The notes below the pieces were generated by a model, which was given only the letters and a program-made list of their open reading frames with translations, searched no databases and had not been told where the DNA came from. Of a DNA stretch of 64,000 bases, positions 22,359-41,538 are shown one piece after another. A program made the translations under genes and the position numbers. The DNA comes from Ciceribacter sichuanensis (lineage in GTDB: Bacteria > Pseudomonadota > Alphaproteobacteria > Rhizobiales > Rhizobiaceae), in NCBI RefSeq assembly GCF_024055605.1, contig NZ_JAMXLX010000003.1:1-64000 (forward strand). The letters run 5' to 3'. The number at the start of each line of letters is the position of its first letter. Position 1 is the stretch's first letter.

Positions 22359-23969
22359 TTATTCCGCAGCGATATTGGCGCTCGGAGCGGCCGCGCGAAC
22401 CTTGTGATCTACATGGTCCTCAAACTTGGCAAAGTTGGTGATGAACATCGCCACCAGCTTCTTGGCCTGCGCATCGTATTCTGCGCCATCAGCCCAGGTC
22501 GAGCGCGGGTCGAGGATCTTGGTGTCGACGCCTTCGACGGCAACCGGTACCGCGAAGCCGAAGTTCGGATCGACGCGGGTCTCGATTTTCTTCAGTTCAC
22601 CATTCAGCGCGCTGGTGAGCAGGGCGCGGGTGGCCTTGATCGGCATGCGGTTGCCGATGCCGTAGGCCCCGCCGGTCCAGCCGGTGTTGACCAGCCAGCA
22701 ATCGACGTTGTGCTTGGCGATCAGGTCGCGCAGCAGGTTGCCGTACTCAGCCGGGTGACGCGGCATGAACGGAGCGCCGAAGCAGGTCGAGAAGGTCGCT
22801 TCCGGTTCGGTCACGCCCTTTTCCGTGCCGGCAACCTTGGCGGTGTAGCCGGAAAGGAAGTGGTACATGGCCTGTTCCGGCGTCAGACGGGCGATCGGCG
22901 GAAGAACGCCGAAGGCGTCTGCCGTCAGCATGATGATTGTCTTCGGATGGCCTGTAATACCGGTTTCCGATGCATTCGGGATGAAGTGCAGCGGATAGGC
23001 GCAACGGGTGTTTTCCGTACGCGACGCATCGTTGAAGTCCGGAACGCCCTTTTCATCGAGAACAACGTTTTCGAGAACGGTGCCGAAACGCTTGGTGGTC
23101 GCGTAGATTTCCGGCTCGGCCTCGGCCGACAGACGGATGGTCTTGGCGTAGCAGCCGCCTTCGAAATTGAAGATGCCGTCTTCGCCCCAGCCATGTTCGT
23201 CGTCACCGATCAGCGTGCGGCTCGGATCGGCCGAAAGCGTGGTCTTGCCGGTGCCGGACAAGCCGAAGAAAACTGCAGCGTCGCCGGCCGGGCCGACGTT
23301 TGCCGAGCAGTGCATCGGCATGACGCCCTTCGGCGGCAGCAGGTAGTTGAGGGCGGTGAAAACAGACTTCTTCATTTCGCCGGCGTAGGAGGTGCCACCG
23401 ATCAGCACGATGCCGTTGGTGAAGTCGCAGGCGATGACGGTCTCGGTACGGCAGCCGTGACGGGCCGGATCGGCGCGGAAGCTCGGCAGGTTGATGATCG
23501 TCAGCTTCGGCTGGAAGCTTGCGAGAGCAGAGCGCTCCGGACGGATCAGCAGGTTGCGGATGAACAGCGAATGCCACGCGAATTCGCTGATGACGCGGGT
23601 CGGCAGGGCGTTTTCGGCATCGGCGCCGCCGATCAGGTCCTGCACGAAGAAATCCCTGCCGGCGGCGTGGGCCAGCATGTCCTTGTGCAGGATGCCGAAA
23701 TGTTCGGGCGACATCGGCTTGTTGTTGTCCCACCAGATCACGCCGTCGGTGTTGCCGTCGCGAACGATGAACTTGTCCTTTGCGGAACGGCCGGTGTGCT
23801 GACCGGTAACGGCGCAAAGCGCTCCGTCAGCGGTAAGCTCGGCTTCGCCACGGCGAATCGCTTCCTGATAGAGATCGCGCTCAAGCAGATTGTAATAGAC
23901 GCGCGAAGCATCACCCAATCCGATTGCCGCTACCCCTACCAGGGGATTGTTTACACCGATTTCCTCCAT
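22359..23969 (-). CDS. pckA: Phosphoenolpyruvate carboxykinase (ATP)
   Basis: A 536-residue ATP-type PEP carboxykinase. It decarboxylates and phosphorylates oxaloacetate to PEP, the entry to gluconeogenesis from dicarboxylates. The kinase-1a P-loop is [11 protein letters not shown], followed by the metal-binding GDDEHGWG region and the RTAYP-like segment (here RCAYPLHF). ATG 23969 begins MEEIGVNNP as in rhizobia; a GTG two codons upstream is an alternative. It is divergent from chvI and shares a 340-bp region with it. In rhizobia pckA is induced on dicarboxylates. Confidence 0.97.
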
Positions 23970-23997
23970 GAGCACGCTTCCTCTACTATGGGGCCGT

Positions 23998-24117: not shown

Positions 24118-24311
24118 GTTTGCATGACGAGCTGGAAACGGCAAATGGCGGACCATTTGCGCCGGTGCTGGCGATCTGCGACACCGACACCCTTTATCTT
24201 TGCCACAATTTGTTCCACCTTTATCCTCATTAAGCGCATCCTGAATACCGCCACCACCTGGGCTGGGAATGATACCAGGAGCCGCGCTTCATGATGACGG
24301 AGACAAACAGT

Positions 24312-25034
24312 ATGCAGACGATCGCCCTCGTAGACGACGACCGCAACATCCTCACTTCGGTGTCCATCGCACTCGAGGCGGAAGGATATAAGGTCGAGAC
24401 CTATACCGATGGCGCCTCGGCGCTCGACGGTCTCCTGGCGCGGCCTCCGCATCTGGCGATTTTCGATATCAAGATGCCGCGCATGGACGGCATGGAACTC
24501 TTGCGGCGTCTCCGGCAGAAGTCCGACCTGCCGGTGATCTTCCTCACCTCCAAGGACGAGGAAATCGATGAACTGTTCGGCCTGAAGATGGGCGCCGACG
24601 ATTTCATCACCAAGCCTTTCTCGCAGCGCCTGCTGGTCGAGCGCGTCAAGGCGATCCTTCGCCGCGCCGCAAGCCGCGAAAGCCTCGCCGCCGGTGGTGC
24701 GGTCAAGACCGCCGCCGAAGTGGCGGCCCGGACGCTAGAACGCGGCCAACTCGTGATGGACCAGGAGCGCCACACCTGCACTTGGAAGGGCGACCCCGTC
24801 ACCCTCACCGTCACCGAATTCCTGATCCTGCAATCGCTCGCGCAGCGCCCCGGCGTGGTCAAGAGCCGCGACGCGCTGATGGATGCGGCCTATGACGAAC
24901 AAGTCTATGTGGACGATCGCACCATCGACAGCCACATCAAGCGGCTTCGCAAGAAGTTCAAGATGGTCGATGTCGAGTTCGACATGATTGAAACGCTCTA
25001 CGGTGTAGGATACCGCTTCCGCGAAGCAGCGTGA
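24312..25034 (+). CDS. chvI: Response regulator ChvI (OmpR family)
   Basis: A 240-residue OmpR/PhoB-type regulator: receiver with acidic pair VDDDR near residue 8, phosphoacceptor Asp52 ([11 protein letters not shown]), conserved Thr/Lys switch, and C-terminal winged helix from about 140. It is the partner of ChvG. In Agrobacterium and Sinorhizobium the pair controls envelope, exopolysaccharide, acid response and host infection, and is usually essential or nearly so. ATG 24312 has GGAG nine bases upstream and the invariant [10 protein letters not shown] start; ATG 24291 is less likely. Confidence 0.96.
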
Positions 25035-25108: not shown

Positions 25109-26890
25109 TTGGCCAAGCAAGTTGCCGACGGAAATCTCGATGAACTGGAAAGCCTGACCGAACCACGTCGCTTCCTGGTCCATCCCTTCACGATTATCCG
25201 CCGCATCTTCGGTCACGCACTCTTTTCCAGCCTGACGCGGCGGATCGTCTTCTTCAACCTCGCGGCCATCATCGTTCTGGTCGGCGGCATCATGTATCTC
25301 AACCAGTTCCGCGAGGGACTGATCGATGCCCGTGTCGAAAGCCTGCTCACCCAGGGCGAAATCATCGCCGGCGCGATCTCCGCCTCGGCGTCGGTCGATA
25401 CCAATTCGATCACCATCGATCCGCAGAAACTGCTTGAGTTGCAGGCCGGCCAGAGCATCACGCCGGTGCCGAGCGACGAGGATCTGGATTTCCCGATCAA
25501 TCCCGAGCGCGTGGCGCCCGTCCTGCGGCGGCTGATCTCACCCACCCGCACGCGGGCGCGACTGTTCGATGCCGACGCCAACCTGCTCCTGGATTCCCGC
25601 CACCTCTATTCCCGCGGGCAGGTGCTGCGGTTCGATCTGCCGCCGGTTGACGGGGAAAGCTCAGGTCTCACCGACTGGGCCGCGCGCACCTTCAACTCCA
25701 TGCTGCAGCCGAGCAATCTGCCGGTCTATAAGGAAGCGCCGGGTGGCGACGGCTCGATCTATCCGGAAGTGATGAATGCGCTGACCGGCGTGCGCGGCGC
25801 AGTCGTGCGCGTCACCGAGGGCGGTGAACTCATCGTTTCCGTCGCCGTTCCGGTACAGCGCTCACGCGCCGTGCTCGGCGTCCTGCTGCTTTCCACCCAG
25901 GCCGGCGATATCGACAAGATCGTCCATGCCGAGCGCCTCGCCATTCTCAGGGTCTTCGGCGTCGCGACACTCGTCAACATCGTGCTGTCGCTGCTCCTGT
26001 CATCCACCATCGCCAATCCGCTGCGACGCCTTGCGGCGGCAGCGATCCGCGTGAGGCGCGGGGCCAAGGAGCGCGAGGAAATCCCCGATTTTTCCGCCCG
26101 TCAGGACGAAATCGGCAACCTTTCCATCGCGCTGCGCGAAATGACCACCGCGCTCTACGACCGGATTGACGCGATCGAGAGCTTCGCTGCCGATGTCAGC
26201 CACGAACTGAAGAACCCGCTCACGTCGCTCAGAAGTGCCGTCGAAACGCTGCCGCTCGCCAAGAACGACAATTCCCGGCAACGGCTGATGGACGTCATCC
26301 AGCATGACGTTCGCCGTCTCGACCGCCTGATCAGCGACATTTCGGACGCCTCGCGCCTCGACGCGGAGCTTGCCCGCAACGATGCCAAGCCGCTCGATCT
26401 CGAAATCCTGCTCTCGAGCCTCGTCGACGTCTCCCGGCAGATCCGCAGCAGCAAGAGGCCGGTCGAGATCGACTATGTCATCGACCAGAAGCCGGGCGCC
26501 CGGCAGCGCTTCATGGTCAACGGCCACGACCTGCGGCTTGGCCAGATCGTGACCAACCTGATCGAGAATGCCCGTTCCTTCGTTCCCGACGTCAGCGGCA
26601 AGATCACCGTGCGGCTTTCCCGCACCCGCGGCCGCTGTCTGATCCAGGTGGAGGATAACGGTCCCGGCATCCAGGCGGAAAACATCGATCGTATCTTCGA
26701 GCGCTTCTATACCGACCGTCCCGAGCGCGAGGACTTCGGACAGAATTCCGGTCTTGGCCTGTCGATCAGCCGGCAGATCGCCGAGGCTCACGGCGGCACG
26801 CTCAGAGCCGAGAACATCGTCGATCCTGAAAGCGGCGGCCTGCGCGGCGCACGCTTCATCCTCTCCCTGCCGGCAGAAAACACCCCATGA
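25109..26890 (+). CDS. chvG: Sensor histidine kinase ChvG (ExoS)
   Basis: A 593-residue membrane kinase: a cytoplasmic tail, TM1 at about 47-68, a periplasmic sensor of roughly 200 residues, TM2 at about 285-305, HAMP, phosphoacceptor His365 (SHELKNPLTSL), and ATPase N/G boxes. In rhizobia its periplasmic domain is held inactive by ExoR; exoR is not in this window. The start is TTG 25109, with GGTGAG four bases upstream; no suitable ATG exists nearby. Its stop overlaps hprK by 4 bp, joining envelope sensing to the PTS genes in one operon. Confidence 0.95.
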   Translation: MAKQVADGNLDELESLTEPRRFLVHPFTIIRRIFGHALFSSLTRRIVFFNLAAIIVLVGGIMYLNQFREGLIDARVESLLTQGEIIAGAISASASVDTNSITIDPQKLLELQAGQSITPVPSDEDLDFPINPERVAPVLRRLISPTRTRARLFDADANLLLDSRHLYSRGQVLRFDLPPVDGESSGLTDWAARTFNSMLQPSNLPVYKEAPGGDGSIYPEVMNALTGVRGAVVRVTEGGELIVSVAVPVQRSRAVLGVLLLSTQAGDIDKIVHAERLAILRVFGVATLVNIVLSLLLSSTIANPLRRLAAAAIRVRRGAKEREEIPDFSARQDEIGNLSIALREMTTALYDRIDAIESFAADVSHELKNPLTSLRSAVETLPLAKNDNSRQRLMDVIQHDVRRLDRLISDISDASRLDAELARNDAKPLDLEILLSSLVDVSRQIRSSKRPVEIDYVIDQKPGARQRFMVNGHDLRLGQIVTNLIENARSFVPDVSGKITVRLSRTRGRCLIQVEDNGPGIQAENIDRIFERFYTDRPEREDFGQNSGLGLSISRQIAEAHGGTLRAENIVDPESGGLRGARFILSLPAENTP

Positions 26891-27354
26891 CTGCGGATAG
26901 GCCGGCTGAGAGCAATGTTCACGGCACGGCCATCGTCGTCGGGACGACCGGCTTCATCTTCATCGGTCCTTCCGGTGCCGGCAAATCGGCACTTGCCTTC
27001 GATTGCATGACGGAGGCCCGTCTCGCTGGCGATTTCGCAGCGCTGATTTCCGACGACCAGGTTTTCGTGTCCCGGCACGGATCTCACGTGCTTGCCCGCC
27101 GGCCCGAACCGATTCGGGATCTCATCGAGCTTCGGCATGCAGGCATCGTCAGGGTCGAGAGCCTGCCGCAAGCCTTGCTGCATTATGCGATATTGCCCGT
27201 CCAGGATGGCGAGAGGCTGCCGCCGGAGCGCGAAACCGCGACACTTGCGGCAGAAATAACGCTTCCGGCTCTGCGCGTGCCCACTGGCGCTCGCATGCCA
27301 TTTGCCTTTATAAAGGCCCTGATTGCGACTGAAGTCGCCACCCGCCCAACATGA
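26887..27354 (+). CDS. hprK: HPr kinase/phosphorylase, short alphaproteobacterial form
   Basis: A 155-residue HPr kinase lacking the N-terminal domain of the about 310-residue Firmicutes enzyme, as is normal in Rhizobiales. P-loop GPSGAGKS is at 27-34 and the ISDDQV motif follows. It phosphorylates HPr on the serine now visible as Ser47 in the ptsH product below. The overlap with chvG (ATGA) suggests co-regulation with ChvG/ChvI. It is followed after 123 bp by the EIIA gene. Confidence 0.93.
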   Translation: MTADRPAESNVHGTAIVVGTTGFIFIGPSGAGKSALAFDCMTEARLAGDFAALISDDQVFVSRHGSHVLARRPEPIRDLIELRHAGIVRVESLPQALLHYAILPVQDGERLPPERETATLAAEITLPALRVPTGARMPFAFIKALIATEVATRPT

Positions 27355-27477
27355 GGCATCGCAGTTTGCGCTTGAACTTCCGTTTTTCATCGCCAAGATG
27401 GCGTCCCACTGATGGACGCGGCTTGAACGTTAGGTTATCTGGCCGGCTGTTTGCGCAGGCAAGGGGGCAGTAGAAGT

Positions 27478-27879
27478 ATGATCGGACTAGTGCTTGTCAC
27501 TCATGGCAAGCTGGCTGAAGAGTTTCATCACGCAGTGGAACATGTGGTTGGCCCCCAGAAATTCATCGAAACGGTGTCAATCGGTCCAGAGGACGACATG
27601 GACCAGCGTCGGCAGGATATCCTCGACGCTGTCATGCGCGCCGATGACGGACACGGCGTCATCATCCTGACCGACATGTTCGGCGGTACCCCGTCCAACC
27701 TCGCGATCTCCGTCATGAACAGCGGCCGCATCGAAGTCATCGCAGGCGTCAACCTGCCGATGCTGATCAAGCTCGCCGGAGTGCGGGGCGACAATGACAT
27801 GGAAAAGGCGCTCGTCGATGCATCGGAAGCCGGCCGCAAGTACATCAATGTCGCCAGCCGCGTGCTAAGCGGCAAGTAA
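27478..27879 (+). CDS. PTS EIIA component, mannose/fructose family
   Basis: A 133-residue EIIA of the mannose class, with phosphorylatable His9 (VLVTHGKLAEE) and the DMFGGTPSN motif. No EIIB/C/D transporter genes accompany it, so it is likely regulatory rather than for sugar uptake: it can accept phosphate from HPr. ATG 27478 is the family start (MIGLVLVTHG); the frame is open 27 bases upstream. HPr follows after 21 bp. Often labelled ManX or EIIA(Man). Confidence 0.93.
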   Translation: MIGLVLVTHGKLAEEFHHAVEHVVGPQKFIETVSIGPEDDMDQRRQDILDAVMRADDGHGVIILTDMFGGTPSNLAISVMNSGRIEVIAGVNLPMLIKLAGVRGDNDMEKALVDASEAGRKYINVASRVLSGK

Positions 27880-27900: not shown

Positions 27901-28173
27901 ATGTCACTCTCCCGAGAAATGCTGATCACCAACAAGCGCGGACTGCATGCCCGCGCTTCGGCAAAATTCGTCCAGACAGTCAGCGGTTTCGACGCCATCG
28001 TTCACGTCACCAAGGACGGAACGACGGTCGGCGGAACCTCGATCATGGGCCTGATGATGCTGGCGGCGAGTCCGGGCTGCAGCATTCTCGTTACGGCGTC
28101 CGGCGCGGAAGCCGAAGTCGTGCTGGATGCCCTCTCCCACCTCGTCGGCGACAAGTTCGGCGAGGAAGCCTAG
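27901..28173 (+). CDS. ptsH: Phosphocarrier protein HPr
   Basis: A 90-residue HPr with His16 (GLHARASAKF), the EI-dependent phosphorylation site, and Ser47 (GGTSIMGLMML), the HPr kinase site equivalent to Ser46. It lies with hprK and EIIA(Man) in a regulatory PTS cluster; the EI protein (PtsP/EI-Ntr) is not here. The gene starts 22 bp after the EIIA gene and has an AGAGCAG ribosome site upstream. Confidence 0.95.
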   Translation: MSLSREMLITNKRGLHARASAKFVQTVSGFDAIVHVTKDGTTVGGTSIMGLMMLAASPGCSILVTASGAEAEVVLDALSHLVGDKFGEEA

Positions 28174-28345: not shown

Positions 28346-29746
28346 ATGAGCACACAGAAGGACTACGTCGTCGCCGACATCGGCCTCGCCGATTTCGGAC
28401 GCAAGGAAATCAACATCGCCGAGACCGAGATGCCGGGCCTCATGGCATGCCGTTCTGAGTTCGGTGAAAGCAAGCCGCTCAAGGGCGCCCGCATCAGCGG
28501 TTCGCTGCACATGACGATCCAGACCGCCGTGCTGATCGAAACCCTGGTGGCGCTCGGTGCCGAAGTCCGCTGGGCTTCCTGCAACATCTTCTCGACCCAG
28601 GACCATGCAGCATCGGCCATTGCCGCTGCCGGCATTCCGGTCTTCGCGATCAAGGGCGAGTCGCTCGAGGACTACTGGCAGTATACCGACCAGATCTTCC
28701 AATGGACCGATGGCGGCGTTTCCAACATGATCCTCGACGATGGCGGCGATGCCACCATGTACATCCTGCTCGGCGCGCGCGCAGAAGCCGGTGAGGACGT
28801 TCTGTCAAATCCGGGTTCGGAAGAGGAAGAAATCCTCATCGCCCAGATCAAGAAGCGCCTCAAGGCTTCCCCGGGCTGGTTCACCAAGCAGCGCGACGCA
28901 ATCCGTGGCGTGACGGAAGAAACCACCACGGGCGTTCACCGCCTCTATGAGCTCAGCAAGAAAGGCCTCCTGCCCTTCCCGGCCATCAACGTCAACGATT
29001 CGGTCACCAAGTCGAAGTTCGACAACAAGTATGGCTGCAAGGAATCGCTGGTTGACGGCATTCGCCGCGGCACCGACGTCATGATGGCCGGCAAGGTCGC
29101 CGTGGTCTGCGGTTACGGCGACGTGGGCAAGGGTTCGGCTGCTTCCCTGCGTGGCGCCGGCGCCCGTGTGAAGGTCACCGAAATCGATCCGATCTGCGCC
29201 CTTCAGGCTGCCATGGACGGCTTCGAAGTCGTGACGCTGGAAGACGTCGTATCCTCGGCCGACATCTTCATCACCACCACCGGCAACCGCGACGTCATCC
29301 GCATCGAGCACATGCGCGAGATGAAGGACATGGCGATCGTCGGCAACATCGGCCACTTCGACAATGAGATCCAGGTTGCCGCGCTGCGTAACCTGAAGTG
29401 GACCAACGTGAAGCCGCAGGTCGATATCATCGAGTTCCCCAAGGGCAACCGTATGATCCTCCTGTCGGAAGGTCGCCTGCTCAACCTCGGCAACGCAACC
29501 GGCCATCCGTCCTTCGTGATGTCGGCTTCGTTCACCAACCAGGTGCTCGCCCAGATCGAGCTCTACACCAAGCCCGGCGAATACAAGAACGACGTCTATA
29601 TCCTGCCGAAGCACCTCGATGAGAAGGTCGCGCGCCTGCATCTCGAAAAGCTCGGCGTGAAGCTCACCGAACTGTCTGAAGAACAGGCAAGCTATATCGG
29701 CGTCGAAAAGGCAGGTCCGTTCAAGGCCGAACACTATCGCTATTAA
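28346..29746 (+). CDS. ahcY: Adenosylhomocysteinase
   Basis: A 466-residue S-adenosylhomocysteine hydrolase, cytoplasmic, NAD-dependent, splitting SAH into adenosine and homocysteine and so keeping methylation going. NAD-binding [10 protein letters not shown] is in the centre and the C terminus ends in the family's FKAEHYRY, which reaches into the neighbouring subunit. Length fits the insert-bearing bacterial form (about 465). Preceded by GGAGAG and followed by a clear terminator, it is a single-gene unit. Confidence 0.98.
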
Positions 29747-29945: not shown

Positions 29946-32546
29946 ATGTCGGTAAATCATAGCGGCCCGCTCGCGCGGGAAACGATGGCGCGCCTTGGCC
30001 TGAGCGGCTTCAGGCAGGCGGGGAAGCAGGCTCACGGGGAAGTGGAGCTGCGCCCTGCAAAGGCATCGCGCGGACGCAAGCGATACCAGCTTCCGCAGAT
30101 CTGGTCGGTCTGCATGGGCGCCACTGCACTCACGGGACTGATCGTCCCGGAGTTTGCCCGTGCCCAGGTGACGACGGCACCGGCCGAGCGCCTTTTCACC
30201 TCCGTGGAAGCCGTCGGCTATTCCCTCGTCATCGGCATTCTCTCCGCTGCGCTCGTTTCAGCCGTCTGGCTGATCCGCCAGCGTGCGCGCCTCGAGAACG
30301 AGGGAGCGGAAATGCGTTCCGCATTGTCCGAGGCCAACCAGCAGATTTCGCGCTATCAGGCGCTGATTGCCGACAAGAACCGCCGGATCGTCATCTGGGA
30401 CGGGCAGAACCGGCCGGAATTCCTCGGACAGCTGCCGGTTGAAACAGGTGCTCCGCCGGCAGACGCAGATTTCCTCGCCTTTGGCCGATGGCTGAAACCG
30501 TCGTCGGCAGGAGAGCTTGAAAAGGCGATCGAGAAACTTCGCTTCGACGCCCACAGCTTCGATCTCATCGTCGAGACCCAGCGCGGAGAGGTTCTGGAAG
30601 TTCAGGGCCGGCTTTCCGGCGGACGCGCTTTCGCCCATTTCGTCGCGCTCAACAACCTGCGGGCCGAGCTTGCCGAACTCAAGATCGAACGCAATCGCCT
30701 GAAGACCTCCATCGCCACCTTCGAGGCTCTGCTGGACGCCATCGAACAGCCCGTATGGCAGAGAGACGCCGATGGCCGGCTGGTCTGGGTCAACCATGCC
30801 TATAGCGAAGCGGTCGAGGCCGGATCCCCCGATCAGGCCGTGCGTGAAAGCCGCGAGGTTCTGACCAGCCTGACCCGTGAGAAGATCAAGGCAAGTGTCA
30901 CCCCGGAATCCCCGTTCCACGATACCGTTTCCACCGCCGTCAGAGGCAATCGGACGTTCTACGACGTGGTCGATGTGCGCGGTCCCGCGGGTTCCTGCGG
31001 CATGGCGATTGACGTCTCCCAGAAGGAGGCGCTTCGCGAGGAGCTGAAGCGCACGCTTAAGAGCCATGCCGAAACGCTCGATCATCTGGCGACGCCCGTT
31101 GCGATCTTCGATGGTGACCGACGCCTGCAATTCTTCAACCAGGCTTTCGTGCAGCTCTGGGAACTCGACCACGCGTTCCTCGAAGCCCGGCCCGACCACG
31201 CGGAACTTCTCGACAGGCTGCGTTCAGCGCACAAGCTGCCGGAACAGCTGAGCTGGAAGGCCTGGAAGGAAAGTACGCTTGCGGTCTACCGTTCGCTCGA
31301 TACCCAGACGGAACTCTGGCACCTGCCGAACGGCCAGACGCTTCGTGTCATCGCGTCGGCGCATCCGCAGGGCGGCGCCACGTGGGTCTTCGAAAACCTG
31401 ACCGAACAGGTCGATCTCGAAACGCGCTACAACACGCTGCTGCGCGTGCAGGGCGAGACCATCGACCATCTTTCCGAAGGCGTTGCGGTGTTCGGCCCGG
31501 ATGGCCGCATCCAGCTTTCCAACCCGGCGTTCCGGGCGCTCTGGGGCATCACCGAAGCCGAGGCGCGGCATGGAACGCACATCCGCGCCATCGAAACGGC
31601 CTGCGCGCCTTCCTACGACAAGCCGGACGGCTGGAAGGGTTTCAGCAAGATCATCACCAGCTTCGAGGACGAGCGTCCCTCCAGCCAGGGCACGTTGGAA
31701 CTCTATTCCGGTCTCGTGCTCGACTATGCGGTCACGCCGCTGCCGAACGCCCAGACCATGCTGACCTTCGTCAACATCACCGACAGTGTCAGGGCCGAAC
31801 GGGCGCTGAAGGAAAAGAACGAAGCGCTGCGCAAGGCGGACGAGCTGAAGAACGATTTCGTGCAACACGTTTCCTACGAACTGCGTTCGCCGCTGACCAA
31901 CATCATCGGTTTCACCGACCTTCTGAAGACGCCGGCGATCGGCTCGCTCAACGAGCGGCAGGCCGAATATATCGACCACATCTCCACCTCGTCTTCAGTG
32001 CTGCTGACCATCGTCAACGACATTCTCGATCTGGCGACGGTGGATGCGGGCATCATGCGGCTCGACTATTCCGATATCGATCTCAACGATCTGCTCGACG
32101 ACGTGTCGATGCAGATGACCGACCGCCTGCAGGAAGGCAATGTGACACTGGAGATCGCGGCATCGGCGAAGCTCGGCCATATCGTCGCCGATCAGCAGCG
32201 GCTCAAGCAGATCCTGATCAAGATCCTGACCAACGCGGTCAATTTCGCACCGGAAGGATCGGCCGTGGAAATGAAGTGCTGGCGGGAAGACGGCGATTTC
32301 GTCTTCACCGTTCATGACAATGGCTGTGGCATGACACCCGACATGCTGGCAACCGTGTTCGACCGCTTCTCCACCAACGGCAAGGGTGGCCGGCGCAGCG
32401 GCGCGGGCCTCGGTCTTTCCATCGTGGAAAGCTTCGTCAATCTCCACAACGGCCAGGTCTCCATTGACAGCACGCCCGGGCGCGGTACGACTGTTGCGTG
32501 CCGTATACCGACAGCCGTCATGCCCCAATCCGTTGCCGCAGAATGA
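29946..32546 (+). CDS. divL: DivL-type cell-cycle pseudo-histidine kinase
   Basis: An 866-residue PAS kinase-like protein. Near residue 85-105 there is one membrane segment, then several PAS-like repeats (about 250-620), then a dimerisation helix and a complete HATPase domain with N and G boxes. The H-box reads HVSYELRSPL: the usual phosphoacceptor histidine is tyrosine (Tyr644). This Tyr is the hallmark of DivL, which in Caulobacter regulates CckA and thereby CtrA, controlled by DivK. ATG 29946 follows GGAG. Its stop overlaps tsaE by 4 bp. A generic PAS histidine kinase annotation would miss the substitution. Confidence 0.85.
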   Translation: MSVNHSGPLARETMARLGLSGFRQAGKQAHGEVELRPAKASRGRKRYQLPQIWSVCMGATALTGLIVPEFARAQVTTAPAERLFTSVEAVGYSLVIGILSAALVSAVWLIRQRARLENEGAEMRSALSEANQQISRYQALIADKNRRIVIWDGQNRPEFLGQLPVETGAPPADADFLAFGRWLKPSSAGELEKAIEKLRFDAHSFDLIVETQRGEVLEVQGRLSGGRAFAHFVALNNLRAELAELKIERNRLKTSIATFEALLDAIEQPVWQRDADGRLVWVNHAYSEAVEAGSPDQAVRESREVLTSLTREKIKASVTPESPFHDTVSTAVRGNRTFYDVVDVRGPAGSCGMAIDVSQKEALREELKRTLKSHAETLDHLATPVAIFDGDRRLQFFNQAFVQLWELDHAFLEARPDHAELLDRLRSAHKLPEQLSWKAWKESTLAVYRSLDTQTELWHLPNGQTLRVIASAHPQGGATWVFENLTEQVDLETRYNTLLRVQGETIDHLSEGVAVFGPDGRIQLSNPAFRALWGITEAEARHGTHIRAIETACAPSYDKPDGWKGFSKIITSFEDERPSSQGTLELYSGLVLDYAVTPLPNAQTMLTFVNITDSVRAERALKEKNEALRKADELKNDFVQHVSYELRSPLTNIIGFTDLLKTPAIGSLNERQAEYIDHISTSSSVLLTIVNDILDLATVDAGIMRLDYSDIDLNDLLDDVSMQMTDRLQEGNVTLEIAASAKLGHIVADQQRLKQILIKILTNAVNFAPEGSAVEMKCWREDGDFVFTVHDNGCGMTPDMLATVFDRFSTNGKGGRRSGAGLGLSIVESFVNLHNGQVSIDSTPGRGTTVACRIPTAVMPQSVAAE

Positions 32547-34066
32547 CCGACAGCCAGAACAGTATTTCTCTCTTCCTACCCTCCGAAGCAGCCACCCAGC
32601 AACTTGGCGAGGATCTCGCGCTTGCCCTCAAGCCCGGCGACTGCGTTGCGCTATGGGGCGATCTTGGCGCCGGAAAGTCGACGCTTTGCCGCGCCCTGCT
32701 CCGCGCCATGGCCGATGACAGCGAACTCGAGGTTCCGAGCCCGACCTTCACGCTGGTGCAGAACTACGATCTGCGCCTTCCGGTCGCGCATTTCGATCTA
32801 TACCGGCTCAGCGATCCAGGCGAACTGGACGAACTCGGCTTCGAGGACGCGCTGAAGGGTGGCGCGTGTCTGGTGGAATGGCCGGAAAAGGCGGGTACCG
32901 CCCTGCCCGCCCGCCGGATCGATATCCGGTTTGCCTTCGAGACCAGCGGCGGTCGACAGGTCGTCATTGAAGCCGATGGCGCCAAACTCGCAAGAATCTC
33001 GCGCGTGCTTTCCATCAGAGGCTTCCTCGACAGCCACGGTCTGGCCGGCGCCCGGCGGAGACACCTGACCGGTGACGCCTCCACGCGCGCCTATGAATAT
33101 ATCTACCCGGCACAAGGGCCGCGAAAGATCTTAATGGATTCGCCGCGCCAGCCGGATGGTCCACCGATCCGCGACGGCAAGCCCTATTCGCAGATCGTGC
33201 ATCTGGCGGAGGACGTCTATCCTTTCGTCGCAATCGCCGGCGCTCTGCGGGACAAGGGTTTCGCCGCGCCGGAAATCTACGAAAGCGATTGCGAGAACGG
33301 CATTCTGCTGATCGAGGACTTCGGCCCGGAAACCGTTCTCGACGGCAACGGGGTTCCGATTCCGGAACGTTATCAGGCGAGCGTCGAATGCCTCGCGGCC
33401 CTGCACGCGATATCCTTCCCGCGCGAAATCGACTTCAATGGCGGGCTGGTGCATCGCATTCCCGACTACGACCGCACCGCCATGAAGATGGAAGCAGAGC
33501 TTCTGCTCGACTGGCACCTTCCGTGGAAACGCGCCGGCAAGCCCGCGACGACGGAAGAACGGGCGGAATATCTGGCGATCTGGGACGGGCTGATCGATGC
33601 GCTTGCGGATGCGGAGAAGTCCCTTGTGCTCAGGGATTTCCATTCGCCCAACATCATCTGGCGCGGTGAAAGGAAGGGAAGCGACCGGATCGGCCTTCTC
33701 GACTTTCAGGATGCCATGATCGGGCCGACGGCCTACGACCTCGTCTCCATCGTGCAGGATGCCCGCGTTACCGTCGAGCGGCCTCTGGTCGACCGGCTGA
33801 TGGAAGACTATCTCTCGCTGCGCCGGAAGAACCCGGCCTTCGATGAGGCGAATTTCCTCAAGAGCTGGGCGATCATGTCGGCACAGCGGGCCTGCAAGCT
33901 GAACGGGCTGTGGATCCGCCTGCTTCAGCGGGACGGCAAGCCGGGCTATATGAAGCATATGCCGAGAACCCTGTGGCATCTGTCCGTCGCGTTCGAACAT
34001 GAGGCGCTCGCCCCCTTGCGCGACTGGTGTGCCCGGGTTGGAATCGGCTCGGTCGAATCAGCGTAG
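32543..34066 (+). CDS. tsaE: Fusion: TsaE (tRNA t6A ATPase) + AmgK-like sugar kinase
   Basis: A 507-residue two-part protein. Residues 1-150 are TsaE, the ATPase of the TsaBDE complex for N6-threonylcarbamoyl-adenosine in tRNA: P-loop GDLGAGKS at 39-46 and the SPTFTLVQNY block. Residues about 170-490 are an aminoglycoside-phosphotransferase-fold kinase with catalytic Asp365 (LRDFHSPNIIW) and metal-binding DFQD (LLDFQD). The kinase half resembles AmgK (MurNAc/GlcNAc anomeric kinase), and murU follows directly, so it probably feeds peptidoglycan recycling. The function link is inferred from adjacency. It overlaps divL by 4 bp and precedes murU by 9 bp. Confidence 0.88.
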   Translation: MTDSQNSISLFLPSEAATQQLGEDLALALKPGDCVALWGDLGAGKSTLCRALLRAMADDSELEVPSPTFTLVQNYDLRLPVAHFDLYRLSDPGELDELGFEDALKGGACLVEWPEKAGTALPARRIDIRFAFETSGGRQVVIEADGAKLARISRVLSIRGFLDSHGLAGARRRHLTGDASTRAYEYIYPAQGPRKILMDSPRQPDGPPIRDGKPYSQIVHLAEDVYPFVAIAGALRDKGFAAPEIYESDCENGILLIEDFGPETVLDGNGVPIPERYQASVECLAALHAISFPREIDFNGGLVHRIPDYDRTAMKMEAELLLDWHLPWKRAGKPATTEERAEYLAIWDGLIDALADAEKSLVLRDFHSPNIIWRGERKGSDRIGLLDFQDAMIGPTAYDLVSIVQDARVTVERPLVDRLMEDYLSLRRKNPAFDEANFLKSWAIMSAQRACKLNGLWIRLLQRDGKPGYMKHMPRTLWHLSVAFEHEALAPLRDWCARVGIGSVESA

Positions 34067-34075
34067 CGGCTTGCC

Positions 34076-34807
34076 ATGAAGATCACCCAGGCGATGGTGC
34101 TGGCAGCGGGGCTCGGAGCCCGGCTGCGGCCGATCACGAATACGATCCCGAAGCCTCTGGTGCCGGTCGGCGGCAAGCCGATGATCGACTATGTGCTCGA
34201 CTCGCTGGCCGATGCCGGCGTGGAGCGGGCCGTCGTCAACGTGCATTATCTTGCCGACCAGATGGTCGAGCATCTGTCCCGCTATGAAAAGCTCGAGATC
34301 GTCATTTCCGACGAGCGCGACCGGCTGATGAATTCGGGCGGTGGGCTGGCCAAGGGGTTGAAGCTTCTCGATCGCTCTCCCGTCTATGTGATGAATGCCG
34401 ATCTTTTCTGGCTGCAAGACGAAACAGGCGAAGCTTCCAATCTGCGCCGTCTCGCGCGGTTCTTCGAACCTGATAGCATGGACATGGCGCTTCTCTGCGT
34501 GCCCATGGAAAACACCACGGGACATAACGGCAAGAAGGACTTCTCGCTCGGCGAGGACGGCCGCCTTGTGCGGTATTCCGAGGGGCTGCCGCGACCGGTG
34601 GTTTATGCGGGCGCAATCGCCATGCACCCCTCACTTCTCGACGATGCGCCTGAGGATGCCTTCAACCTCAACATCTACTTCGACCGAGCCATCGCAAAGG
34701 GCCGTCTGGCGGGTTTCGAGATGGTGGGGCACTGGATGACGGTCGGAACGCCTGAGGCGCTCGACGAGGCCGAGGATGTCATCCGGCGCCTCTTCGGCGG
34801 GGCATGA
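34076..34807 (+). CDS. murU: MurNAc-1-phosphate uridylyltransferase (MurU-like)
   Basis: A 243-residue nucleotidyltransferase with MVLAAGLGARLRP and IPKPLVPV (NTP and metal binding) and a short beta-strand C terminus, no left-handed helix domain, typical of MurU. In Pseudomonas MurU makes UDP-MurNAc from MurNAc-1-P and UTP, bypassing MurA and giving fosfomycin tolerance. The AmgK-like kinase domain is directly upstream. A mannose-1-phosphate guanylyltransferase cannot be wholly excluded from sequence, but the context favours MurU. addB begins 4 bp after the stop. Confidence 0.83.
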   Translation: MKITQAMVLAAGLGARLRPITNTIPKPLVPVGGKPMIDYVLDSLADAGVERAVVNVHYLADQMVEHLSRYEKLEIVISDERDRLMNSGGGLAKGLKLLDRSPVYVMNADLFWLQDETGEASNLRRLARFFEPDSMDMALLCVPMENTTGHNGKKDFSLGEDGRLVRYSEGLPRPVVYAGAIAMHPSLLDDAPEDAFNLNIYFDRAIAKGRLAGFEMVGHWMTVGTPEALDEAEDVIRRLFGGA

Positions 34808-34811
34808 CGCC

Positions 34812-37800
34812 ATGCGGCCTCATCAACCGCGTGTCCTGACCATCCCGTCCGGTCTGTCCTTCCTGAGGGTGCTTGCGGCATCGCTCCTCGATGGGAGGCT
34901 CGCACCCGGATATCGATATGATCCGCAGGACCCGCTTTCGCTGGCGAGAGTGACCATCCTCGTACCGACCCGGCGTGCCGCCCGTGTGCTGCGCTCGGAA
35001 TTCGTGGAATTGCTTGGGGGACGCTCCGCCATCCTGCCGGTGATCCGGCCGCTTGGCGAAACCGATGACGACAGCGGTTTCTTCGAGGAAGAAGCACCTT
35101 TCCTGCTCGACCTCGCCCCACCGGTCAGCGGCATCGTCATGCTGCTCGAACTGGCCCGCCTCATCCTTGCATGGCGTAACCAGTTGCCGAATGTGGTTCG
35201 CAGCATCCATTCCGACACGCCACTGGTGGCGCCGGCAAGTCCGGCGGACGCCATCTGGCTCGCCCGGGCGCTGACGGAACTGATCGATGCGGCGGAAACC
35301 GAAGGCTGCGACTGGACGTCGCTCAAGACGCTCGATACGTCGAACTTCGCCACATGGTGGCAGCTTACGGCCGAATTCCTGGGTATCGCCACCCAGTTCT
35401 GGCCTGCGCGCCTGGAGGAATTGACCCGCTCCTCGCCGGCGCGGCACCGCGACGCCGTATTGCGCGGCGAGGCCGAGAGGCTTTCCCGCTCGACGTACAG
35501 CGATCCCATCATCGTTGCGGGCTCCACCGGCTCCATTCCTGCGGCGGCCGACCTTATCACGGCCATCGCCGCCCGTCCGGAAGGAACGGTTGTCCTGCCC
35601 GGCCTCGACACGAGCATGCCGGACGATGACTGGACGCGGATCGGGCTTGCCGCGGAACGCATCTCCGATCCCGCATCGCGCGGCCATCCGCAATACGGTC
35701 TCTTTCATTTGCTTCGGCGTATGCGCGTCGAGCGCCGGGATGTCGAAACACTCGCGGAGGCACCTTCCGATCTTGCGGATCGTGCCGAGGTGCTGTCGCG
35801 GGCGATGGCGCCTGCGGGTGCAACGGACGGCTGGAAAATCTGGCGCGACGATTTCGGCACTGCGCGGATGGAAGCCGCCTTTGCCGATGTCGGCCTGATC
35901 GAGGCTGCGAACGAGCGTGAGGAGGCAACCGCCATCGCCATCGCGCTCCGGCTCGGCCTCGAAAAGCAGCGTGAGGGCAGCGAAAGCCGGGTGGCGCTGA
36001 TCACGCCGGATCGCACGCTGGCGCGGCGTGTGACGGCGGAGCTGGCGCGCTTCGGCATCATCGCCGACGATTCGGCCGGCACACCCTTCACCGCCACGCC
36101 GCAGGGCATCCTGGTCCAGCTCCTGCTCGAGGCAGCGCTGCGACCGGGCGATCCCGTGGCGATCGTCTCGCTGCTCAAGCATCCGCTCGCCCGCTTCGGA
36201 TTCGATGCAGAGACTTACCGGACTGCCGCCGATGCGCTGGAGACGATTGCGTTGCGTGGCGGCGTTCAGCCCGTCGATCTCGCGACGCTACCGGTTCTCT
36301 TCCGGCAACGGCTTGAGGAACAGGCGACCGACCGCCATCCACCGCAATGGCGGATTGGCGTTTCCCGTGAAACACTTGAGACCTCGGGAGAGCTTGCATC
36401 GCGCATATCCGCAGCTGCCGAGCCGCTCGTCTCGGCCCTTGTAGTGAAGATCGGCGAGCGGCGCCTTTCGGACAGGCTTCCGGTCGGCCAATGGGCCGAG
36501 CGAACGGGACGGACGCTGGAAGCGGTTTGCGGCGACGACAAGGGCGACCTCTCGCTTCTCTGGTCCGATGAGGCCGGCGACAGGCTCGCCGACCTGCTGG
36601 CGGAAATCATGAGCGCCGACGGCCAGATCGAGGCCGATGGTCCCCAGTGGATCGATATAATGGCGGCGCTGATGACCGGAGTCGCGGTCAAGCCGAAGGC
36701 GATGCGTCACCCACGCGTCTTCATCTTCGGTACGCTGGAAGCCCGTCTGCAGAATGTCGATACCGTTATCATCGGCGGACTGAACGAAGGTTCGTGGCCG
36801 GGCCAGACCACCAACAATCCGTTCCTGTCGCGCATGATGAAGACGGAGATCGGGCTGGAGCCGCCGGAGAAACGCATCGGCCAGCTTGCCCACGATTTCG
36901 AGATGGCTTGCGGCACGCGCCAACTGATTTTCTCGCGCGCGTTGCGTCAGGGCTCGGCTCCAACGGTTGCCTCCCGCTGGCTGCAGCGCCTCCTTGCACT
37001 TGGCGGCGGCGATTTCGAAAGCCGGCTAAAGGAGCGTGGTGATATCTACCGCCATTATGTCGAACTGCTCGACAAAGGCGAAAGCCAGCCGCTGGCGCAG
37101 CGGCCGGCACCGAAACCGCCGGCCGAACTTCAACCGCGCAGCTATTCGTTCAGTGAGGTCGGCCGCTTCCGGCGCGATCCCTATTCCATCTATGCCCGCC
37201 GCATTCTTCGGCTCGATCCCGTCGATCCGTTCAATCAGGATCCGGGTGCTGCCGAGCGCGGCACGCTCTATCACAAGATCATCGAACGCTTCGTCAGCGA
37301 GGGTCACGATCCCTTGACACCGGCCGGTGCTGCCGCGATGCGCGTGATCACCGACCGGCTGTTCGACGAGCAGGGCCTTCCCACCCACATCGACATCGTC
37401 TGGCGACAGCGGTTCAGGGCGGTCGGTGATGCCTTCCTTCGCTGGGAAGGCAGGCGCAGGCCGGAAATACGCCAGACCCTGACCGAGGCTCGTGGCGGCG
37501 TTGATCTGGCACCCGTCGGTATTCGCCTCACCGGCGTAGCCGACCGGATCGACATCAAGGGCGGCGGTCATGCCGATATCATCGACTACAAGACGGGTCT
37601 CAACCCGAGTCCTGCACAGGCCCGCAGCCTGCTCGACCCGCAGCTCGCGCTGGAGGCAGCGGCCCTGATGGAAGGAGCATTCCGCGATGCCGGCCGGCTT
37701 CATCCCGAAAACCTCCTCTATGTCCGGCTGCGACCGGGCGACCGCTTCCAGACCGATCAGGTGAACAACGAACTGACCGGACGCGGCGACAACAAGAAAT

Positions 37801-37994
37801 CCGCGCTCGATCTTGCGGCGCAATCGATCGCCGAACTCGGCCGTTTCGTCGCGGCCCTGCAAGCGGGTGAGCGTGGCTTCGTTTCGCGGCTCATACCGGC
37901 GCAGCAAAACGATTTCGGCGGCGAATACGATCATCTGGCCCGGGTTGCCGAATGGTCGACCGCAGACCGCGAGGAGACCGGCAATGACGAGTGA
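34812..37994 (+). CDS. addB: AddB, subunit of the AddAB double-strand-break repair nuclease
   Basis: A 1060-residue AddB. An N-terminal inactive-helicase-like region is followed by a C-terminal RecB-type nuclease domain with catalytic ADIIDYKTG. With AddA it resects DNA ends to start RecA recombination, the alphaproteobacterial counterpart of RecBCD. ATG 34812 is chosen over an in-frame start at 34776 that would overlap murU. addA begins inside its end (11-bp overlap), so the pair is translationally coupled. Confidence 0.94.
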   Translation: MRPHQPRVLTIPSGLSFLRVLAASLLDGRLAPGYRYDPQDPLSLARVTILVPTRRAARVLRSEFVELLGGRSAILPVIRPLGETDDDSGFFEEEAPFLLDLAPPVSGIVMLLELARLILAWRNQLPNVVRSIHSDTPLVAPASPADAIWLARALTELIDAAETEGCDWTSLKTLDTSNFATWWQLTAEFLGIATQFWPARLEELTRSSPARHRDAVLRGEAERLSRSTYSDPIIVAGSTGSIPAAADLITAIAARPEGTVVLPGLDTSMPDDDWTRIGLAAERISDPASRGHPQYGLFHLLRRMRVERRDVETLAEAPSDLADRAEVLSRAMAPAGATDGWKIWRDDFGTARMEAAFADVGLIEAANEREEATAIAIALRLGLEKQREGSESRVALITPDRTLARRVTAELARFGIIADDSAGTPFTATPQGILVQLLLEAALRPGDPVAIVSLLKHPLARFGFDAETYRTAADALETIALRGGVQPVDLATLPVLFRQRLEEQATDRHPPQWRIGVSRETLETSGELASRISAAAEPLVSALVVKIGERRLSDRLPVGQWAERTGRTLEAVCGDDKGDLSLLWSDEAGDRLADLLAEIMSADGQIEADGPQWIDIMAALMTGVAVKPKAMRHPRVFIFGTLEARLQNVDTVIIGGLNEGSWPGQTTNNPFLSRMMKTEIGLEPPEKRIGQLAHDFEMACGTRQLIFSRALRQGSAPTVASRWLQRLLALGGGDFESRLKERGDIYRHYVELLDKGESQPLAQRPAPKPPAELQPRSYSFSEVGRFRRDPYSIYARRILRLDPVDPFNQDPGAAERGTLYHKIIERFVSEGHDPLTPAGAAAMRVITDRLFDEQGLPTHIDIVWRQRFRAVGDAFLRWEGRRRPEIRQTLTEARGGVDLAPVGIRLTGVADRIDIKGGGHADIIDYKTGLNPSPAQARSLLDPQLALEAAALMEGAFRDAGRLHPENLLYVRLRPGDRFQTDQVNNELTGRGDNKKSALDLAAQSIAELGRFVAALQAGERGFVSRLIPAQQNDFGGEYDHLARVAEWSTADREETGNDE

Positions 37995-40900
37995 TCCGCT
38001 TGCACTGCCGACGGGACACGATCCCCGCACATGGCTCGACTGGACGACGATGCAGCAGTCGCTCGCCTCGGATCCGCAGCGCTCCGCCTGGGTGTCGGCC
38101 AATGCCGGCTCCGGCAAGACCCATGTGCTGACGCAGCGCGTCATCCGACTGCTGCTCGGCGGCGCGCGTCCCTCCTCCATTCTCTGCCTGACCTATACCA
38201 AGGCCGCGGCCTCGGAAATGTCGAACCGCGTGTTCGCGCGACTGTCCGACTGGGCGACGCTATCGGATGAAGCGCTCTCCGACCGCATCTACGACATCGA
38301 ACGGCAACGGCCTGACAGGCAGAAGCTTGCGGATGCACGCCGGCTGTTCGCCAAGGCGCTGGAGACGCCGGGTGGATTGAAAATCCAGACGATCCACGCC
38401 TTTTGCGAAGCGCTCCTGCACCAGTTTCCGCTGGAGGCCAATGTCGCCGGGCATTTCAACGTTCTCGACGATCGGGCATCCGTCGCGGTTCTGGCCGAAG
38501 CAAAGCGCCTGCTTCTGACCGCAACCTCTTCGGAGGAAGACGCCGATCTTGCCGCAGCGTTTGCCGATGTGCTTTCCATTTCAGACGAAAGCGGTCTGGA
38601 AAGTTTGCTCGGCGAGGTCGTCGCCAATCGCCATGCCATCCGGCAGTTCTCGCGCGCGTCGGAGCGTTTTGGCGGCATCGACGCGACGCTGAGGCGCGGC
38701 TTCGGACTCCCCGACGATGCCTCAGAAGCATCGCTCGCAGGCGAATACTGGCCACTCGCGGGGCTCAACGGCGGAATGCTGGCGCTTTACATCCGCCTTG
38801 CCGAAGAAAAGGGCGGGGAGAAGGTCAAGGCCGTTGCCGATGCGCTTTCGGTAGTCCGCCAGACCGACGATCCGCTCGAACGCGCACGTATCCTCGATTC
38901 GGCTTTCCTGACCGCATCCGAGACGCCAAAGGCCGACAGTTCGCTGATCGCGGCTGCCATGAGCAAGGCAGCACCGGAACTGAAGGATGCGGTCATCGCG
39001 GCGCGCGAGCATGTGCTCGCCTGCCGCGATCGACTACGGATCTTCCGCATGTATGCAGCGACGAAGGCGGCGCTGACGCTGGCGTTGCGGTTCGACGCCG
39101 ATTACGAGGATCTTAAGAAGAAGCGTAGCCAGCTCGATTTCGAGGATCTGATCGCGCGGACGGCCGAACTGCTGATCCGCAGCGATGCCGGCCCTTGGGT
39201 GCATTACAAGCTGGATCAGGGCATCGACCATATTCTCGTGGACGAGGCGCAGGACACCAGTCCGCTGCAATGGTCGGTCATCCGCTCGCTACGCGGGGAC
39301 TTCTTCACCGGCAGTGGCGCACGCGACGTCCTGCGCACCTTTTTTGCGGTGGGCGACGAGAAGCAGTCGATCTACTCCTTCCAGGGCGCCCGGCCGGAGC
39401 GCTTCTCGCAGGAGGCAAACCAGACCGCGCGCGAAGTCGACCTGGGTGGGCAATTGTTCAGCTCCGTCAGGCTGCCGCTTTCCTTCCGTTCTACCTCGAC
39501 GGTTCTCGCCGCGGTCGATCGGGTGTTCTCGGTCGAGGACAATATCCGTGGCCTCAGCGCCGCCGGCGATCCCGTCGTGCACATGTCGAGCCGCGGCGGC
39601 CATCCGGGCGCCGTCGATCTCTGGTCGATGATCGCCGCCGAGGCCAATGAGAAGAGCGAGGACTGGACCGCGCCTTTCGACGCGACACCGGAAAGCGCGC
39701 CCTCCGCCATACTGGCCCGGCGGATCGCCTCCGTCATCGGTCAGATGATCGGCCGGCAGACCATCATCGAAAAGGGCAAGGAACGGCCGATCCGCGCTGG
39801 CGATATCCTCGTTCTGGTGCGCAAGCGCGACAGCTTCGTCAATGCGCTGACGCGGGCGCTGAAACGGCTCGACAATATCCCCGTCGCCGGCGCGGATCGG
39901 CTGAAGCTCACTTCCCATATCGCCGTGCAGGACCTGCTGGCGCTCGGGCGCTTCGCCCTCCTGCCGGCAGATGATCTTTCGCTGGCGGCCCTTCTCAAAT
40001 GCCCCCTGTTCAACCACAGCGAAGACGAATTGTTCGAGCTTGCGGCGCGTCGCCCGGAAGGACAGGGCCTCTGGGAACACATGCTGGCGGAGTGCGCGGA
40101 GCCGGCTTCCATATGGGAGATGTCCGCGAAGCGCCTCGGCGAGTTCCGCCGGCTGTCGCAGAACATGCCGGTGCATGATTTCTATGCCCGCGTGCTCGGT
40201 CCCCATGGCGGACGCCGTGCCTACCTCGGACGTCTCGGAAGCGAGGTCAGCGACATTCTCGACGAGTTCCTGACCTTTGCGCTGTCCTTCGAGACTGCCG
40301 GACTGCCGGGACTTCAAGCCTTCGTCTCGACGCTTGAAATGGAAGGACCCGAGGTCAAGCGCGAGCAGGACAAGGATCGCGACGAAGTCCGCATCATGAC
40401 CGTTCATGCCTCCAAGGGGCTGGAAGCGCCGGTGGTCTTTCTTGTTGACGGCGGATCGAAATCCTTCAACCACAGCCACCTCGCCAAATTCCGGCTGATC
40501 GAGACCGACGAGAGCCTGCCGGCCCTGCCCGTCTGGGTGCCGGTCAAGGCGCTGGGCAACTCGCTTGTCGCCGCCGATACCGAGCGTCGCAAGCAGCTCG
40601 CGGAAGAGGAATACCGGCGTCTCCTCTACGTGGCGATGACGCGGGCCGCGGACCGTCTGATCGTCTGCGGTTATCGCGGCGTGCAGGATCCCGGCGACAT
40701 CTGGCACCGGATGATCGAAAGTGCGCTGCGCGGTGAAGAAGCCCATTGCCGCGAGGTCGCGTTCAACGGCCCGGATGGCGAATGGGAGGGCCTCTCCTGG
40801 CGTCTGCCGGGCAGCGAGACTGCATTTCCCCAAGAGGCGGAAGGTTCTGTCGAGAGACCGAGCGAAAGCCTCCCTGATGCCCTGCTTCGGCCGTTGCCAC

Positions 40901-41538
40901 CGCAGGCAAGCCTGCCACGACCGCTCAGCCCCTCGGGAGCCGGCACGATCGTCATCGACGATACGGACGACGCGCTGGTGACTTCGCCGCTGTTCGGCGA
41001 GAAGGAATCGGCCGGCATCGCGCTCCAGAAGGGCCGCCTCGTTCACCGCATGCTGCAAGCGCTTCCGGCGATTACCGAGGCCGAGCGCCCTGCGGCTGCC
41101 AAGCGCTATGTGGAAAGGGCTGCGCGTTTCTGGCCGCAGAAAGAGCGCGAACGCCTACTCGACACGATCCTTTCGGTTCTCGACAACCCGGATCTCAAGC
41201 CGGTCTACTCCTCCCGCGGCGAAGCCGAAGTCTCGGTCATGGGAACCTTCATGCTGAACAGCGAGGAACGCGCCGTTTCCGGCCGGATCGACCGCATGGC
41301 GGTCACCGACGACAGCGTCATTCTGGTGGACTACAAGACCAACCGAACCCCGCCCGCCTCGCTGTCGCAGGTGCCGCTGTCGCATCGCGCGCAGCTTGCG
41401 ATCTACCGGGAAATCCTGCGGCCGCTCTATCCGGGCAAGAACTTCGAATGCCTGCTCGTCTACACCGAAAACGGCTCGGTCGTCACACTTCCCGACACAC
41501 TGCTGTCGCAATCGCTTGCCGAGCTCAAGACATCGTGA
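37984..41538 (+). CDS. addA: AddA, helicase-nuclease subunit of AddAB
   Basis: A 1184-residue UvrD-type helicase with C-terminal nuclease. Walker A ANAGSGKT lies at 39-46, Walker B LVDEAQDTS, motif V/VI near VHASKGLEA and the MTRAADRL box, and nuclease motif ILVDYKTNR. It translocates 3'-5' and cuts both strands with AddB. The frame extends upstream to 37813 inside addB, but ATG 37984 gives the family N terminus. trxA follows after 75 bp with its own promoter. Confidence 0.95.
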   Translation: MTSDPLALPTGHDPRTWLDWTTMQQSLASDPQRSAWVSANAGSGKTHVLTQRVIRLLLGGARPSSILCLTYTKAAASEMSNRVFARLSDWATLSDEALSDRIYDIERQRPDRQKLADARRLFAKALETPGGLKIQTIHAFCEALLHQFPLEANVAGHFNVLDDRASVAVLAEAKRLLLTATSSEEDADLAAAFADVLSISDESGLESLLGEVVANRHAIRQFSRASERFGGIDATLRRGFGLPDDASEASLAGEYWPLAGLNGGMLALYIRLAEEKGGEKVKAVADALSVVRQTDDPLERARILDSAFLTASETPKADSSLIAAAMSKAAPELKDAVIAAREHVLACRDRLRIFRMYAATKAALTLALRFDADYEDLKKKRSQLDFEDLIARTAELLIRSDAGPWVHYKLDQGIDHILVDEAQDTSPLQWSVIRSLRGDFFTGSGARDVLRTFFAVGDEKQSIYSFQGARPERFSQEANQTAREVDLGGQLFSSVRLPLSFRSTSTVLAAVDRVFSVEDNIRGLSAAGDPVVHMSSRGGHPGAVDLWSMIAAEANEKSEDWTAPFDATPESAPSAILARRIASVIGQMIGRQTIIEKGKERPIRAGDILVLVRKRDSFVNALTRALKRLDNIPVAGADRLKLTSHIAVQDLLALGRFALLPADDLSLAALLKCPLFNHSEDELFELAARRPEGQGLWEHMLAECAEPASIWEMSAKRLGEFRRLSQNMPVHDFYARVLGPHGGRRAYLGRLGSEVSDILDEFLTFALSFETAGLPGLQAFVSTLEMEGPEVKREQDKDRDEVRIMTVHASKGLEAPVVFLVDGGSKSFNHSHLAKFRLIETDESLPALPVWVPVKALGNSLVAADTERRKQLAEEEYRRLLYVAMTRAADRLIVCGYRGVQDPGDIWHRMIESALRGEEAHCREVAFNGPDGEWEGLSWRLPGSETAFPQEAEGSVERPSESLPDALLRPLPPQASLPRPLSPSGAGTIVIDDTDDALVTSPLFGEKESAGIALQKGRLVHRMLQALPAITEAERPAAAKRYVERAARFWPQKERERLLDTILSVLDNPDLKPVYSSRGEAEVSVMGTFMLNSEERAVSGRIDRMAVTDDSVILVDYKTNRTPPASLSQVPLSHRAQLAIYREILRPLYPGKNFECLLVYTENGSVVTLPDTLLSQSLAELKTS

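Follow-up and report, generated by a model that had tools for sequence, protein, structure and literature searches.

A probably catalytically silent DivL in a bvr-type gene cluster of Ciceribacter sichuanensis and histidine-carrying DivL orthologues in Sneathiellaceae

In Caulobacter, the regulator DivL was shown to control CckA, and our account of its role follows the available parts of PMC4211667, PMC7200025 and PMC11500502, the last of which also has divL as essential, by inference, in Sinorhizobium. In Brucella abortus, divL lies in a 16-gene operon together with ahcY, tsaE, a nucleotidyltransferase gene, addB, addA and trx, and the co-transcription of these genes was demonstrated by reverse transcription PCR (PMC9491525, as far as accessible). 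Here we analyse the divL gene at positions 29946–32546 (forward strand) of a 64,000-nucleotide stretch of Ciceribacter sichuanensis DNA (RefSeq assembly GCF_024055605.1, contig NZ_JAMXLX010000003.1, positions 1 to 64,000), which we refer to as the window. We consider it very likely that the gene encodes a catalytically silent DivL that senses phosphorylated DivK (DivK~P) and controls CckA, and that it is a cistron of an old alphaproteobacterial cluster. The gene itself adds one more ordinary member to the DivL family, and its operon is already known.

The gene is an uninterrupted open reading frame (ORF) with an ATG start that encodes 866 amino acids. Its translation confirmed the H-box HVSYELRSPL that a sequence-only reading of the window had singled out, with Tyr644 (TAC codon, 31875–31877) at the phosphoacceptor position of a kinase. 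That reading had also judged the ATPase domain to be intact, which agrees with the Pfam matches (HisKA, residues 635-702, 60.3 bits; HATPase_c, residues 749-856, 99.2 bits) and with the N, G1 and G2 boxes, in which N763, D791, G793, G795, G819, G821 and G823 are all present. Pfam together with an AlphaFold model (mean predicted local distance difference test score 78.8) revealed the layout of a DivL, that is, several PAS modules followed by the DHp helices and the ATP-binding (CA) domain. Four PAS-like modules (30381–31775; residues 146-234, 270-356, 385-484 and 512-610, with bounds taken from the AlphaFold secondary structure) coincide with Pfam PAS matches, the DHp helices that contain Tyr644 span residues 612-700 (31779–32045), and the CA domain, for which a motif check was added, spans residues 708-855 (32067–32510). 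An N-terminal helix in the model (residues 86-142; 30201–30371), whose hydrophobic start was judged by eye, is a probable membrane anchor. All of these features are on the forward strand.

The closest sequence relative in the PDB is Caulobacter DivL (4q20, E 1.4e-43), followed by 7z8n, a GacS kinase (E 7.5e-30), and the alignment to Caulobacter DivL that the sequence-only reading had proposed gave 37.5% identity over 240 residues of the core. In a Foldseek search with the DivL model, 4q20 took rank 13 (TMt 0.70) and rank 18 (TMt 0.78) at 37% identity; the twelve rows above rank 13 are longer chains (phytochromes, LOV proteins and other sensors) that share 12-20% identity with the model. Within its own genome, the protein has a full-length match only to itself (1946.9 bits), with 33 other rows at no more than 137.9 bits, and among the 25 of 80 NCBIfam matches listed no model reached its cut-off, the best being PnpS with 182.6 against 400. 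In a 49-row IQ-TREE tree built without the phosphoacceptor column, DivL formed one clade (100/100) against four other kinases, and clustering with another kinase family was thus not seen.

To place the protein in its class, 385 genomes were drawn from it, of which 263 gave a hit at 1e-30, some of these hits not being DivL; at 1e-60, matches were present in 60 of 61 genomes of the family and 118 of 121 of the order. The proteins that were read are a subset of the matches, with diverged orthologues undersampled. Among 277 aligned proteins, 222 carry Tyr, 12 His (two of which, L273 and L274, fail the orthology test below), 13 no residue and 30 other residues at the phosphoacceptor position; L, G, f and g are our handles for loci, genomes, families and genera. 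Sequences fetched specifically from three families, together with the 80 best of 293 named Sneathiella-type relatives, raised the set to 420 candidates, and orthology was called when a protein's score against the window DivL was at least 1.1 times its score against any of 19 further kinase loci of the window genome. The test was passed by 410 candidates (window DivL included), or 374 after removal of duplicates: 282 with Tyr (256 with intact N/G1/G2 motifs), 47 with His (27 intact), 31 with other residues and 14 without a kinase core, three of the latter being explained by a contig end (L320) or split genes (L159, L265). This set was deliberately enriched in His families, so that its counts are not frequencies. 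A residue other than Tyr, His or Phe was observed in 26 of the 374 orthologues (L128, L133, L135, L138, L141, L145, L152, L155 and others), and 22 of these 26 have degenerate ATPase motifs.

A rival explanation is that the window gene encodes an ordinary PleC/DivJ/PdhS-type kinase that lost its His in this strain, or that the Tyr is a sequencing error; in its favour, other kinases of the genome match DivL with identities of 24-36%, the matches lying mostly within the core. However, the own-genome scores, the orthology test and the trees, of which the 49-row, a 93-row and a core-only version all keep the window DivL outside those kinases, rule out such a membership. A sequencing error is ruled out by the relatives, because Tyr and intact N, G1 and G2 boxes were found in 34 of 34 distinct proteins of the same family (33 relatives and the window DivL), a set that covers part of the family. 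We therefore assign next to no probability to this explanation; the sequence, fold and orthology observed here mark the protein as DivL.

With Tyr in place of His, DivL would be unable to phosphorylate itself on histidine, and its retained ATPase fold would serve as a module for response-regulator binding and conformational change within a probably membrane-anchored protein that combines a histidine-kinase fold with four PAS-like modules. By analogy with Caulobacter, free DivL would bring CckA into kinase mode, allowing CckA-ChpT-CtrA phosphorylation to run, and DivK~P docking on the DHp helices around Tyr644 would stop the activation of CckA and lower CtrA activity. Because control of CckA was shown for the Caulobacter orthologue, we infer both this control and DivK~P binding for the window DivL. 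The two proteins share the Tyr site and the PAS modules before the kinase fold (4q20; PMC4211667, available part), and the Caulobacter docking residues R553, T557 and A601 are retained as R647, T651 and A697. As in Caulobacter crescentus, DivK (78% identity, E 2.4e-59) and ChpT (PF10090, 120 bits) are encoded in the same genome as DivL; the likeness to Sinorhizobium meliloti DivL (PMC11500502, in part) lies in the regulator and pathway by name.

Several points weigh against a simple transfer of the Caulobacter model. Besides the core identity of 37.5%, Caulobacter Y562 corresponds to F656, with F also in 254 of the 256 intact Tyr-type orthologues, and H579 corresponds to Tyr675 in an alignment judged by eye. 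Because mutations at Y562 and H579 weakened DivK~P binding in Caulobacter (PMC4211667, available part), the DivK contacts cannot be identical in the two proteins. In addition, the predicted template modelling score of the AlphaFold model is 0.33, which leaves the arrangement of the domains unsure.

A different use of Tyr644, in which DivL would be active as a tyrosine kinase, autophosphorylating this residue and passing the phosphate on, would be in keeping with the N/G1/G2 motifs, which 256 of the 282 Tyr-type orthologues keep intact, and the 1999 DivL paper of Wu et al. reportedly carries a tyrosine-kinase reading in its title. In the residue 645 column, however, Gln replaces the acidic residue after the phosphoacceptor in 80 of the 256 intact Tyr-type proteins, in contrast to Glu in 27 of 27 intact His-type proteins, and we regard tyrosine kinase activity as improbable. 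Even less probable, in our estimate, is that the kinase core is decaying without a role and that the PAS part alone is functional, which would resemble the short Rhodobacterales DivL. DivL without a kinase core is seen in several families and was already published for Rhodobacterales (PMC9430884 and PMC2877005, in part), which removes it as a novelty, but the N/G1/G2 residues are kept in all same-family proteins read and the genome retains DivK. A catalytically silent DivL that would sense DivK~P remains our most likely reading of the window gene.

In two genomes of family f150 (G194 and G287; loci L153 and L154), DivL stops behind its final PAS module and the available flanks contain no clear remnant of a kinase, yet DivK is encoded at 72 and 70% identity, respectively. 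This runs counter to the statement in the accessible part of PMC2877005 that kinase-less DivL always goes with the absence of DivK. A search for DivK at 1e-22 found none in G078, G365 and G252, which fits the same statement.

According to the available part of Childers 2014, Tyr is conserved throughout alphaproteobacterial DivL, with the exception of Ala in Magnetospirillum. The sequence-only reading had named orthologues with His as evidence against DivL, and such orthologues do exist in some lineages; they look like derived returns, and the DivL call stands. A DivL match is present in 24 of 25 genomes of family code f44, which named records identify as Sneathiella species and Oceanibacterium hippocampi, and His (CAT in 18, CAC in 5) was found with intact N/G1/F/G2 boxes in 23 of 23 orthologues that carry the column, the 24th ending at a contig end. 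Among the best 80 of the 293 named relatives, Tyr was found in 58, His in 21 and Ala in one; the 21 His loci comprise 20 Sneathiella-like ones (Oceanibacterium included) and one from a metagenome-assembled genome (MAG) outside the group (L436). These His-type proteins occupy the same syntenic slot and share the PAS and kinase architecture of the window DivL, from which they differ by combining His with intact ATPase motifs. AhcY, AmgK and TsaE all occur in the flanks of 20 of the 23 f44 loci, with at least one of them in the other three, and among the 27 intact His-type rows, counting those with enough flank, TsaE adjoins divL in 23 of 26 and AhcY in 22 of 25. Glu adjoins the His in all 27 rows and Thr follows four residues after it in 26. 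The orthology test excluded three candidate second DivL copies of f44. The partners are in place as well: each of the 16 f44 genomes searched for DivK encodes it (74-79% identity), and ChpT was found in 8 of 8. Tyr is therefore not universal in DivL, and because a literature search for Sneathiella together with DivL found no paper, the His-type of Sneathiellaceae is, as far as we searched, beyond what is in print.

His-type DivL with intact ATPase motifs was observed in L297-L319 and L360-L379 (Sneathiellaceae and Sneathiella-like MAGs), mostly in the ahcY-divL-tsaE slot. Separate from Sneathiellaceae, L324 and L325 (family f95, genus g97) and L436 also have intact His-type DivL; neither ahcY nor tsaE was found in their available flanks.

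A return from Tyr to His is the most likely origin of the Sneathiellaceae type, favoured by the tree, by topology tests and by ancestral-state estimates. In the 49-row tree, His rows occur in three places, each nested among Tyr rows, namely f44 with f84 (100/98) and the f95 genera g97 and g178. Forcing the f44 and g97 His rows together cost 33 log-likelihood units (approximately unbiased (AU) test, p 0.007) and forcing all non-His DivL into one clade cost 52 (AU p 0.002), which rejects a single His lineage, with the caveat that these groups were defined with the tree already known. A two-state model on the same rows, in which f84 is represented by two, put the probability of His no higher than 0.001 for the root of DivL and at 0.015-0.020 for the f44+f84 ancestor. 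The His clade did not receive its kinase core from another kinase, since the core-only tree keeps f44 inside DivL; for four f44 rows, the best core identity is 58-67% with Tyr-type DivL and at most 44% with nine other kinases. Two results weigh against such a return: in the quick 93-row tree the root of DivL falls, weakly supported, beside the clades of Sneathiellales and f95, which makes the return less clear than in the 49-row tree, and support for the f44+f84 clade falls from 100/98 to 74.7 in an 80-row tree and 81 in the 93-row tree.

What the regained His does is a more tentative matter. In the available part of PMC4211667, the Y550H form of Caulobacter DivL becomes phosphorylated when DivK~P and ATP are supplied and is inactive alone; back-transfer was not formally excluded by the authors, and the mutant harms growth and morphology. 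Because Y550H regains DivK~P-dependent phosphorylation, DivK~P-stimulated autokinase activity would be expected in Sneathiella DivL, and the intact boxes of f44 argue for use of the His. We give a little less than an even chance to the proposal that Sneathiellaceae (Sneathiella, Oceanibacterium) and, separately, one genus of another family regained His by single-base TAY to CAY changes and thereby a real kinase switched on by DivK~P. If so, a pseudokinase that had been retained as a binding surface would have returned to catalysis and a second phosphate input would exist beside CckA. The comparison indicates that the trait used to define DivL can reverse, and the natural reversal found in the class comparison, together with the one-residue swap, would make it directly testable why DivL gave up catalysis yet kept the fold.

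His next to a decayed ATPase domain looks like drift. It was found in genus g178 of f95, with His in 10 of 10 and degenerate boxes, and in genus g389 of f177 (L347-L357; genomes of about 0.9-1.6 Mb), with 8 His, 3 Tyr and no recognisable G boxes. In four g389 genomes tested, DivK is only 48-50% identical to Caulobacter DivK.

The gene order around divL, observed directly in the window, matches the bvr order pckA / bvrR-bvrS-hprK-ptsM-ptsO-ahcY-divL-tsaE-nucleotidyltransferase-addB-addA-trx. On the forward strand upstream of divL are a chvI/bvrR-type response regulator gene (24291–25034) and a chvG/bvrS-type sensor kinase gene (25109–26890), for both of which domains came from family searches and names from gene order, followed by hprK in its short form (26887–27354), the PTS EIIA-man gene manX/ptsM (27451–27879), a ptsH/NPr-like ORF of 90 amino acids (27901–28173), named from position and sequence only and equated with ptsO by position, and ahcY for S-adenosylhomocysteine hydrolase (28346–29746). 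Downstream, also on the forward strand, are a tsaE-amgK fusion in one ORF (32543–34066; mechanical ORF from GTG 32498), a murU-like nucleotidyltransferase gene (34076–34807), addB (34776–37994; TIGR02786, 1214.6 bits), addA (37813–41538 from a mechanical start, the real one probably lying further in; TIGR02784, 1450.8 bits) and the thioredoxin gene trxA (41614–41934). As in Brucella, pckA (22359–23975) lies upstream on the opposite strand, and a folC-like Mur-ligase-family gene (42001–43344, reverse strand) lies beyond trxA. The Brucella operon differs by four more predicted or broken genes interspersed, one of them between ahcY and divL, and the accessible operon table names neither amgK nor murU, with no separate amgK and a nucleotidyltransferase in the murU position (PMC9491525). 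Co-transcription is the Brucella result; the window operon is known from gene order, by which the ahcY-divL-tsaE/amgK-murU-addBA cluster would continue the chvI/chvG (bvrR/bvrS) operon and would probably be co-transcribed in this strain.

The sequence-only reading had held the association of divL with these neighbours to be undiscussed, which the published Brucella operon contradicts; that paper was the only literature found on DivL with ahcY or tsaE (PMC9491525, in part). Because a search for DivL together with amgK found no paper, the DivL-amgK association may be unremarked as a detail. The sequence-only reading had also tied cell-cycle control to translation and wall recycling, but a shared operon does not establish a functional link of cell-cycle control with tRNA modification and wall recycling. 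Its neighbour names hold for tsaE, which passes the NCBI cut-off (99.1 versus 60.1 bits), but for amgK and murU at the homology level only, their matches to the right models being below cut-off (227.3 versus 500 and 225.8 versus 370). The proposed translational coupling of divL to tsaE-amgK is plausible from the overlap of stop and start as ATGA at 32543–32546; the exact overlap is present in 8 of the 34 loci of the same family (window included) and, among the further 129 counted, in 24.

In Tyr-type loci whose flanks extend to 900 bases or more, TsaE directly follows divL in 144 of 269 loci, AhcY lies upstream of it in 173 of 254, and 103 of 245 have both, which makes the inner block old and widespread. 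AmgK-like matches accompany 138 of the 277 DivL-matching loci, and the fusion to tsaE was seen in the window.
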